Source of the DNA: Candidatus Gastranaerophilales bacterium
Lineage (GTDB): Bacteria > Cyanobacteriota > Vampirovibrionia > Gastranaerophilales > Gastranaerophilaceae
DNA: 40,932 nt
NCBI GenBank assembly: GCA_944324375.1
Contig: CALUWB010000012.1
Span: forward strand, 1 to 40,932
Direction of reading: 5' to 3'
Below are positions 38,062 to 40,693 of the stretch, piece after piece. Below the pieces are notes generated by a model. That model saw only the letters and a list, made by a program, of their open reading frames with translations, ran no database searches and had not been told where the DNA came from. Each line of letters starts with the position of its first letter. The first letter of the stretch is position 1. The translations under genes and the position numbers were made by a program.

Positions 38062-38859
38062 ATGAAACTTGCATTAGTAATAAATCATAATGTATCGAAT
38101 ACAAAAAACGTTCTTTCAAAGTTCGAAGAAGAACTTCAAAAGAACGCTTTAGAGTATGAAGTTATCAATGTAGATAACTTGAAAGGAGGTTATGATTTTA
38201 TATGCGTAATAGGTGGTGATGGGACGATATTAAAAACAGCCCGTTATTACGCAAACTATGGGACACCCATATTAGGAATAAATTTAGGTCGTTTAGGTTT
38301 TCTATCCCAATCCGGAACAAATGATATTGAAAAAATAATTCAATGTATTAAGAATAAAACATACAAAGTTCAAGAACGATTAATGCTAAAATCTAATAAT
38401 TTTGTAGCCTTAAATGATTTTGTTGTAAAAGGTTGTTCAACAACAAGAACTTCAAAATTTTCATTAAAAATTAATGACAAATTTGTATGCGATTATATTG
38501 CAGATGGAATAATAATCTCAACACCAACAGGTTCAACTGCATATGGACTATCAGCAGGAGGCCCGATTCTATCACCAGATATTGATTGTTTAGTCATTGT
38601 TCCAATATGCCCACATACACTAACTGCAAGACCACTTGTTATTCCAGCAGATGAAAAAATAACAATCAGCTCAATGGATGAACTACTAAATGTTGCAATA
38701 GATGGTCAAGAATATAGCGATAAAATCAAAGAGTTTAATATTGAAGTATCAGATAAAAAAGCAAAATTAGCATTTTTAACCGATGATGATTTTTATTCAA
38801 TATTAAGAAACAAACTACATTGGGGTATATCACCATCAAATTTGGTTATGGACAAATAA
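38062..38859 (+). CDS. nadK: NAD kinase
   Basis: NadK phosphorylates NAD to NADP. The 265-residue protein has the signature GGDGTILKTARYY (about 51-63) and NLGRLGFLSQ. ADGIIISTPTGSTAYGLSAG contains the NAD-binding TGSTAY. VAIDGQEY near the C-terminus is also conserved. No ribosome site is present upstream. The stop adjoins the stop of the convergent tail-fibre-like gene with no gap. Confidence 0.96.
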   Translation: MKLALVINHNVSNTKNVLSKFEEELQKNALEYEVINVDNLKGGYDFICVIGGDGTILKTARYYANYGTPILGINLGRLGFLSQSGTNDIEKIIQCIKNKTYKVQERLMLKSNNFVALNDFVVKGCSTTRTSKFSLKINDKFVCDYIADGIIISTPTGSTAYGLSAGGPILSPDIDCLVIVPICPHTLTARPLVIPADEKITISSMDELLNVAIDGQEYSDKIKEFNIEVSDKKAKLAFLTDDDFYSILRNKLHWGISPSNLVMDK

Positions 38860-40347
38860 TTAATACCAACCTCCGTCCCAACCACCTTCGCCACCACCTT
38901 CACCACAATTGTGAACAACAGAAGTTTCAGTGATAAAAGTATCACAAGCAGTATTTATTGCATAACATTGAATTCCATCAAGTTTTTCAACATATTCAAT
39001 AGATTTTATTTGTTTGTAAGATAAATCTAACTGTAATATTTTTTGAGATGTATTAAGCTCTATAACATTTTCAACTTCATGACACGCTTTAGGTTCATAA
39101 GCTGCCCAACCTTCATTAGTTAAGATTGCGTGATCATTAGTTACTTCTATCTTTGAATCATCATCAAATGTTATAACAACAAGGTTGTCTCTTATTGGAG
39201 AATGAATATCAATAACTTCAGTTTGTTCAATTTGTTTTGTTTCCATATTATAAGCTGCAACCATATCACCAACATTTATTTCAGCAGGTTTTTTATAATG
39301 ACCTTCATTATCTACCAAAATATTTGCATAATAAGGAACACAAGTAGAAGAAGGGGCCTCTAATTCTATTTCTTTAATTTCACTAGATTGAGAAGTCCAA
39401 GTACCTTCTTTTGTAATATAATCTGGTGCAGATACAGAATAAGAAACTTCAGTACCTTTTATAACAGTTATACTATTACCATTTTGAGAAAAACCTTGAG
39501 CAGTTAATGTAACAGTAGCATCAGAAGGAGTTGGATTAATAGTTAAAGTAACATTCATAGTATTAATTTTATTTTCTAAAGCTACAATACGAGCAATTAA
39601 AGCAGAATCATCATATGTAGCACTTCCAGATATCACACCGTTTTGAATAGTAATAGTAGAGCCATCAACTTTCACTCCACCTAGAGTAGTTGTTGAAGCA
39701 GTAGGAAGAGTATAAGCTTGAGGGATATTGGGTTTATTAGACAAATCATTGTAACTTCCACTTGTTGCAACGGTTGATAAATCTGATGTGTTAGCTTTGG
39801 CAGACAATTCTGTTTTTGTAGCTAGATTTGAAACATCAGGGATTGTTGGTTTATCAGATAAATCATTGTAACTTCCACTTGTTGCAACTGTTGATAAATC
39901 TGATGTGTTCGCTTTGACAGATAATTCTGTTTTTGTAGCTAAATTTGAAACATCAGGAATTGTTGGTTTATCAGACAAATCATTGTAACTCCCACTTGTT
40001 GCAACTGTTGATAAATCAGAAGAATTAGCTTTCTCATTTAATTTTGTCTGCAAATCAGTTTGGTTAGAAATATCACCTGAAATATTTCCCCAAGAAGTAG
40101 ATAAACTATCTAACTCACCAATATTTTCTGCAACAGTTTTAATATCTTCAATATTTTGAGATACAGATACCAAATTTTCATCTTGTAAAAGTTCAGAAAT
40201 ATTTGATTCAGCAAGTTTAGCCGAATCAGCATAAATTTTAGCCTGATTAGCATAACCAAGCGCAGCATCAGAATAATATTTTGCTTGGTTGTTAGAAATA
40301 GTAACACGATTATTTTCTTTCGTGTTATTAGAAGACATGTTCACCAT
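38860..40347 (-). CDS. Tail-fibre-like repeat protein with intein-like Hint module
   Basis: This 495-residue protein combines several parts. Residues 1-75 are helical. Residues from about 110 to 225 hold tandem 39-residue repeats around the phage tail-fibre motif SGSYNDLSDKPTIP. Next comes the tail-fibre element LPTASTTTLGGVKVD, a coiled segment, and a beta-rich stretch (TLTINPTPSDATVTLTAQGF). Residues 336-480 are a Hint/intein module, annotated separately. The last 15 residues (CGEGGGEGGWDGGWY) are Gly/Trp-rich. AAAGGA precedes the start at 40347. There are no capsid, integrase or other phage genes nearby, so it may be a cell-surface protein built from tail-fibre parts. It is flanked by nadK and tRNA-Glu. 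Confidence 0.85.
   Translation of the reverse strand: MVNMSSNNTKENNRVTISNNQAKYYSDAALGYANQAKIYADSAKLAESNISELLQDENLVSVSQNIEDIKTVAENIGELDSLSTSWGNISGDISNQTDLQTKLNEKANSSDLSTVATSGSYNDLSDKPTIPDVSNLATKTELSVKANTSDLSTVATSGSYNDLSDKPTIPDVSNLATKTELSAKANTSDLSTVATSGSYNDLSNKPNIPQAYTLPTASTTTLGGVKVDGSTITIQNGVISGSATYDDSALIARIVALENKINTMNVTLTINPTPSDATVTLTAQGFSQNGNSITVIKGTEVSYSVSAPDYITKEGTWTSQSSEIKEIELEAPSSTCVPYYANILVDNEGHYKKPAEINVGDMVAAYNMETKQIEQTEVIDIHSPIRDNLVVITFDDDSKIEVTNDHAILTNEGWAAYEPKACHEVENVIELNTSQKILQLDLSYKQIKSIEYVEKLDGIQCYAINTACDTFITETSVVHNCGEGGGEGGWDGGWY
38908..39342 (-). other. Intein-like Hint domain (145 residues)
   Basis: Residues 336-480 of the tail-fibre-like protein carry the splicing blocks in order. 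Block A starts with Cys336 (CVPYYANILVDNEG) and PAEINVGDMVAAY follows. Block B is KIEVTNDHAILTNEGW, with the T-x-x-H. Block F-like is LDGIQCYAINTACDTFITE. Block G is VVHN followed by Cys481. All residues needed for standard protein splicing are present: Cys1, the block B His, the penultimate His, the terminal Asn and the +1 Cys. There is no homing endonuclease. The size is that of a minimal intein. Confidence 0.8.
39740..40040 (-). repeat. 117-bp coding tandem repeat
   Basis: GTAACTTCCACTTGTTGCAAC recurs at 39751 and 39868 and, with one change, at 39985: exactly 117 bp (39 codons) apart. Units encode SDLSTVATSGSYNDLSDKP and TIPDVSNLATKTELS(V/A)KANT. Near-identity at the DNA level shows recent duplication or ongoing homogenisation. 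Confidence 0.9.
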
Positions 40348-40400: not shown

Positions 40401-40440
40401 AAAAAATAAGTAAAAAAATTTATAATTAATTTTCGACAAT

Positions 40441-40470
40441 AAAAAAGAACACCCAGATGGTGTCTTAATT
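40441..40470 (-). repeat. Degenerate copy of the tRNA-Glu terminator
   Basis: The bases AGAACACCCAGATGGTGT are identical to the terminator core at 40588-40605, but here the right arm reads TCTTAATTTTTT and pairs less well. It is part of a duplicated block with the tRNA-Glu fragment at 40540. Between them, CCTCC-TTC-GGAGG (40482-40494) forms another small hairpin. Confidence 0.7.
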
Positions 40471-40539
40471 TTTTAATACTCCTCCTTCGGAGGATGCCTC
40501 TATTTTGAAAATACTTAATCTTAAAAACAGAGTTTTATT

Positions 40540-40562
40540 TACCCCTCCCCAAGCGAATTGTC
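40540..40562 (-). pseudogene. Fragment of the tRNA-Glu 3' end
   Basis: TACCCCTCCCCAAGCGAATT (about 40541-40560) corresponds to the tRNA-Glu 3' end TACCCCCAAGCGAATT at 40621-40636 with a short insertion. ATTTACCCC lies at its edge. It cannot be a tRNA by itself. Confidence 0.6.
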
Positions 40563-40577
40563 ACTTGGTTGTTTTAC

Positions 40578-40618
40578 ATATAAAAAAAGAACACCCAGAT
40601 GGTGTTCTTTTTTTATAT
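40578..40618. terminator. Strong terminator behind tRNA-Glu
   Basis: An 18-bp perfect stem (40578-40595 with 40601-40618), core AGAACACC/GGTGTTCT with loop CAGAT, has long A and T runs on its flanks. It ends the leftward tRNA-Glu transcript three bases past the mature 3' end. Confidence 0.93.
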
Positions 40619-40620
40619 GG

Positions 40621-40693
40621 TACCCCCAAGCGAATTCGAATCGCTGTCTACACCGTGAAAGGGTGTTGTCCTAGGCCTCTAGACGATGGGGGC
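40621..40693 (-). tRNA. tRNA-Glu (anticodon TTC)
   Basis: The 73-base tRNA reads from 40693 leftward. It has acceptor stem GCCCCCA/TGGGGGT (with one G-T pair) and discriminator A. The anticodon arm is ACACC-CTTTCAC-GGTGT (anticodon TTC), and the T arm is AGCGA-TTCGAAT-TCGCT. CCA is not encoded. Confidence 0.95.

Follow-up and report, generated by a model that had tools for sequence, protein, structure and literature searches.

A conserved mini-intein-like Hint domain in a phage-type tail fiber protein of Candidatus Gastranaerophilales

The fiber gene and its surroundings

The DNA analyzed here (the window; 40,932 nucleotides) corresponds to contig C12 in a genome of 2.03 Mb, a metagenome-assembled genome (MAG) of the gut bacterium Candidatus Gastranaerophilales. 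It carries a tail-fiber-like gene (Table 1) whose conserved convergent neighbor at 38062..38859 (+) we take, from its sequence, to be nadK (NAD kinase). Each of the eight genomes of the genus has a fiber-like gene adjoining nadK, and tRNA-Glu lies on the far side of that gene wherever the contig extends to there; the order tRNA-Glu, fiber, nadK is shared by all genomes in which the fiber carries the Hint domain described below. All further genes that were identified within the window belong to the chromosome, among them those for the flagellar proteins FlgI and FlgK, a pterin-binding enzyme, and a member of the metalloenzyme superfamily. Because of these neighbors, and of a locus fixed in the genus (8/8 genomes), a prophage gene was ruled out and the fiber gene is regarded as an orphan, phage-derived gene of the chromosome.

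Several smaller features were seen at this locus. Between the fiber gene and the tRNA (40440-40620, +) the hairpin-like sequence aaaaaagaacacccagatggtgt is found twice, about 145 bases apart, and its second copy is followed by a T run in terminator-like fashion. The right end of the window, from 40858, holds the start of a copy of a gene for a 120-residue membrane-protein-like product (MNKLISFYKSQRQKFWTH...); in genome G007 two identical ORFs of this kind (L039 27-389 and 1998-2360, both on the minus strand) flank a lipase-like ORF beside tRNA-Glu. An extra small gene lies between the fiber gene and nadK in G004 (MIHSKRFLFVNN...; L034 4987-5403, minus strand) and in G001 (MIYSKRFLFVNN...; L019 73-444, minus strand), the former also possessing a Gly-rich tail and matching no Pfam or PADLOC family. 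In G006 the gene adjoining nadK (L020 371-1609, plus strand) has a different front part, possibly lectin-like (LamG) by eye, followed by a PEGA domain, and a separate fiber-repeat ORF is located immediately upstream of it.

Table 1. Features of the fiber locus, with window coordinates and the evidence for each
Feature	Position	Strand	Evidence
Tail-fiber-like orphan gene, 495 aa, convergent with nadK	38860..40347	-	ORF list; phage/head-fiber family matches; locus same in 8 congeners
Residues 1-100, N-terminus of phage-tail-fiber type (AKYYSDAALGYANQAKIYADSAK)	40048..40347	-	Congener conservation; related N-termini in phage structural genes
Three ATSGSYNDLS(D/N)KPxIP repeats, residues 116-210 approx.	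39718..40002	-	Direct reading; PHROG matches 101-229
PEGA-like/Head_fiber_dimeric beta domain, residues 266-335, N-extein side, ending ...SST335	39343..39552	-	PF25641; G006 homologue; phage protein
Hint/mini-intein domain, residues 336-480, 145 aa	38908..39342	-	Pfam, NCBIfam, PDB and hhalign matches
Cys336 = Cys1, predicted N-S acyl shift nucleophile	39340..39342	-	Invariant
TNDH 403-406 = block B TxxH	39130..39141	-	Invariant
His479-Asn480 = block G penultimate His and cyclizing Asn	38908..38913	-	Invariant
Cys481 = +1 nucleophile	38905..38907	-	Invariant
15-residue C-extein CGEGGGEGGWDGGWY, Gly/Trp-rich fiber tail	38863..38907	-	Equivalent Gly-rich tails in Hint-free congeners
tRNA, tRNA-Glu by synteny, conserved upstream neighbor	40621..40693	-	Rfam; tRNA-Glu(ttc) in same place in G004, G005, G007

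The fiber protein

An initial annotation, made from the sequence alone, described the protein as repeat-built and tail-fiber-like. This is borne out by a match of residues 266-324 to the dimeric head-fiber family PF25641 (E 8e-11, over the Pfam cut-off) and by the PHROG matches of the repeats, which together place the protein among the phage-type fibers. PF11133 was matched in congener fibers, under the Pfam cut-off. The G006 homologue of the PEGA-like domain clears the Pfam PEGA cut-off, and a phage protein is 57% identical to this domain. Relatives of the PEGA-like and N-terminal parts are present in phage tail gene clusters, from which a phage origin of the gene appears most likely. No signal peptide was recognized by eye, and PADLOC assigned the fiber to no defense family. 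The 495 residues include five cysteines, all of them within 336-481 (336, 422, 461, 468, and 481).

The Hint domain and its relatives

Residues 336-480 were initially read as a complete mini-intein devoid of an endonuclease and followed by a tiny Gly/Trp-rich C-extein beginning with Cys. The catalytic residues characteristic of class 1 inteins are indeed present (Cys1, block B TxxH, terminal HN, and Cys at +1), the congener matches to the intein profile reach its end, and a domain of 145 residues leaves no space to accommodate an endonuclease. The coordinates given for the domain were exact; the block G histidine, listed as His475-479, is His479. Block F is less typical in that Asp at F:4 and His at F:13, which are usual and not obligatory in class 1, are represented by Ala and Asp in QCYAINTACDTF, the numbering being by alignment to PMC4031507 and not by structure; F:4 is most commonly Asp and F:13 usually His (PMC4031507). 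A class 3 intein (no Cys/Ser1; F:4 Cys, WCT motif) was ruled out by the presence of Cys1 and of Ala at F:4.

A search against Hint and intein profiles, which had been suggested as a check, revealed similarity by several routes. Pfam Intein_splicing (PF14890) matched the 495-residue protein with an E value of 7e-4 and the congener proteins with values of 3e-5 to 1e-4, the latter extending to the final profile position (155/155); all these matches are under the Pfam gathering score. The Pfam Hog Hint module was matched weakly (E 0.0012), the NCBIfam intein N-terminal model at 0.0084, and the solved PolII mini-intein in PDB at 7e-4, across the domain up to its HNC end. When the alignment of the four Hint sequences was compared using hhalign with five inteins (the G212 and ME3 terminase mini-inteins and three helicase inteins from which the endonuclease/insert region had been cut out beforehand), the score was 90.5, with a probability of 98.5 over 134 columns and with C1 registered on C1 and HN-C on HN-C; column-shuffled decoys (n=200) gave a mean of 12.4 (sd 2.4) and a maximum of 22.3. 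By these sequence comparisons the Hint identity is not a chance similarity. Among single sequences, the ME3 terminase mini-intein is the nearest complete relative that was found, with 30% identity over the domain.

The AlphaFold models were both poor, with a pLDDT of 39.8 from the four sequences and of 47.9 after viral inteins had been added. Foldseek analysis of the latter model placed Hint folds at the top, none with E<=0.001 and at a TM of about 0.25, the input alignment having itself contained inteins, and VIA-align reached a Z of at most 3.4, for residues 1-54; together these matches lend the Hint fold weak support. The A1 profile fared worse against PDB than the single sequence, with unrelated proteins in its first ranks.

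Besides the query, the domain is found in G002, G003, and G007 with 85-88% identity, and its occurrence in four separate MAGs rules out an assembly artefact. Cys1, TNDH, HN, and the +1 Cys do not vary among the four species, and each has a domain of 145 residues; conservation of Cys336, the block G histidine, and Asn480 in homologues, on which the initial annotation had staked its reading, therefore holds in three congeners. The C-extein ranges from 13 to 18 residues among the carriers, its remaining residues varying around the fixed +1 Cys, and host and junction differ among congeners. By the Nei-Gojobori method, dN/dS comes to 0.10-0.17 in the Hint domain, compared with 0.17-0.40 in the PEGA-like domain next to it and 0.04-0.09 in nadK. 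The synonymous divergence is about 0.46-0.64 (roughly 0.5) for Hint and 0.52-0.81 for nadK. These values fit mainly vertical descent under constraint, without signs of decay; a ratio lower than that of the neighboring domain argues against a decaying relic.

Comparison with alleles lacking the insert, also proposed at the outset, was made possible by four congeners (G001, G004, G005, and G006) with a Hint-free fiber at the same place. The fibers of G005, G004, and G001 possess another C-terminal domain and then GGLSGGDGGYGGGRGDRE, AGGGAGGWPG, and GGSSGGGIDW, respectively. In G006 the PEGA-like domain runs directly into the Gly-rich tail GGREPGSGAGGGTITDPEF with no Hint between them; since the protein is otherwise quite different, this is an empty site at the level of domains and not a strict allele. 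These Gly-rich ends indicate that the Hint C-extein is the usual Gly-rich end of the fiber, and that Hint sits at the exact junction of domain and tail. The relatives show a domain that is real, conserved, and optional. The nadK tree groups G005 with the Hint carriers, though with weak support (66-70; backbone 40), and a loss of Hint by cassette exchange is possible, not established.

In a search of 383 genomes of the order, Hint matches were confined to the four carriers in this genus. IMG/VR yielded no relative of the domain, and the phage and plasmid searches gave nothing beyond distant inteins and other weak similarities. At the level of the phylum (386 genomes) the other matches were weak and partial, and the two that were read are true helicase inteins. 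Weak Pfam Intein_splicing matches elsewhere in Gastranaerophilales were dismissed as chance-like with the exception of one in G212, a member of another genus. Here contig C42 (L040 1138-2949, minus strand) encodes a prophage-type terminase with an ordinary mini-intein (CLTGD...TPDH...VHN|C), the only other intein in the order by Pfam search.

Splicing and its alternatives

The sequence tilts toward splicing of residues 336-480, which would probably join Thr335 to Cys481. Cys336 would take the carbonyl of Thr335 as a thioester, aided by Thr403 and His406; the N-extein would then be captured by Cys481, and cyclization of Asn480, aided by His479, would allow the Hint domain to depart. The predicted product is a fiber of 350 residues with Thr335 joined to Cys481, a single Cys preceding the Gly/Trp tail, and the junction peptide ...APSSTCGEGGGEGGWDGGWY. 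We infer here both that the domain reacts at all and that splicing exceeds cleavage. What favors splicing over mainly cleavage is the invariant +1 Cys in a variable tail together with the empty-site junction, since splicing would recreate the PEGA/Gly-rich-tail junction of the G006 type. What counts against it is the Ala at F:4, the Asp at F:13, and a host that, as for cleaving bacterial intein-like (BIL) domains, is variable and sometimes Hint-free. In the Mtu RecA and gp41-1 inteins the F:4 Asp restrains premature C-cleavage and an Asp-to-Gly change promotes it (PMC9033041, PMC12245125); with Ala in this position, some of the product may undergo C-cleavage and free a Cys-Gly-rich peptide.

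The same residue, along with the variable host protein (PMC2814812, PMC7765530) and a length inside the 130-155 aa BIL range (PMC9185962), would suit a BIL-like Hint which mainly cuts at Asn480 and/or Cys336 without ligation and frees a Cys-Gly/Trp peptide or a tailless fiber. Such cleavage is a serious alternative though the less likely outcome, as a +1 Cys invariant in four of four species amid varying residues would be unexpected were ligation irrelevant, and the tail stays attached to the PEGA domain in Hint-free G006. It is very improbable that the fiber is passed from Cys336 to a lipid, sugar, peptidoglycan, or other protein in the manner of Hedgehog. Cys1 and TxxH would suffice for the thioester, and the weak Hog Hint match points in this direction, but HN and the +1 Cys are intact and invariant though unnecessary for such a role, and the Hint is followed not by an acceptor-recognition domain but by a C-extein of just 13-18 residues. 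As this C-extein is, judging from the Hint-free alleles, the ordinary fiber tail, splicing or tail release is favored over a Hedgehog-like role. The non-canonical block F could also be expected of an inactive relic or a purely structural domain, a reading rendered quite unlikely by the low dN/dS, the invariant catalytic residues, and the constant length in four species. A polymorphic-toxin HINT was ruled out, no toxin domain being found downstream.

Comparison with known systems

In a survey of intein hosts, inteins were found in conserved sites and the lone exception was a BIL (PMC2814812). BILs are found in variable proteins, where the +1 nucleophile is dispensable (PMC7664689, PMC9185962, PMC7765530), and mostly cleave (PMC7664689). 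The contrast between the two which the initial annotation had drawn agrees with this literature (PMC2814812, PMC7664689, PMC7765530). With the class 1 mini-inteins, such as those of the Acinetobacter phage ME3 terminase and P. horikoshii PolII, the Gastranaerophilales domain shares Cys1, TxxH, HN, and the +1 nucleophile; all are endonuclease-free and about 134-170 aa in length, and the profile match to inteins is end to end. Whereas known inteins occupy conserved enzyme sites (PMC2814812), this domain is situated near the C-terminus of a variable fiber, with a 15-residue C-extein and Ala at F:4. The G212 prophage terminase intein, likewise a mini-intein with Cys1, TPDH, HN, and +1 Cys, has an ordinary intein host and site, and is not a close relative of the fiber Hint.

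BIL type A domains, defined as Hint domains of 130-155 aa with a C-terminal HN in variable bacterial proteins (PMC9185962, PMC7765530), are similar in size, C-terminus, and non-conserved host, but differ in having no conserved +1 nucleophile, whereas this Cys is invariant here (4/4). The presence of HNC sets the domain apart from type B, in which the HN-nucleophile C-terminal motif is absent, and the 13-18 residues remaining after the Hint set it apart from Hedgehog Hog-Hint proteins, in which a sterol-recognition region follows. Since it combines the catalytic residues of an intein with the setting of a BIL, we file it as a mini-intein-like variant of the Hint superfamily and a canonical member of neither group, a placement made by residues and published descriptions.

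Self-processing modules at the C-terminal end of fibers are known from S74, a chaperone of phage tail fibers and spikes and of the Bdellovibrio MAT fibers (PMC10769870). These are likewise phage-like mosaic fibers, and the MAT fibers share a chromosomal location with the Gastranaerophilales fiber (PMC10769870). The S74 module is autoproteolytic, whereas Hint could ligate the tip back. The existence of such modules makes a role in fiber maturation a reasonable idea. By analogy with the S74 intramolecular chaperone, and speculatively, the fiber might have domesticated the Hint domain for its maturation, as a module that is present during folding or trimerization, then removes itself by splicing and ligates the Gly/Trp-rich tip, with the extra invariant cysteines possibly serving redox control; we regard this as unlikely.

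Purifying selection alone is no proof of usefulness because an unspliced insert could harm the fiber, so that a passive intein would also stay intact. Use is likelier here than usual, since the fiber is variable and imprecise deletion at the junction should be tolerable. The main residue set of an intein, endonuclease-free and strongly constrained, is found outside the usual intein sites, within a fiber that is variable and sometimes Hint-free. This provides a natural test of whether an intein can be retained because it is useful and not as a parasite, and also a test of what divides inteins from BILs. If active, the domain would be a compact mini-intein which tolerates a Gly-rich C-extein and acts without the F:4 Asp.
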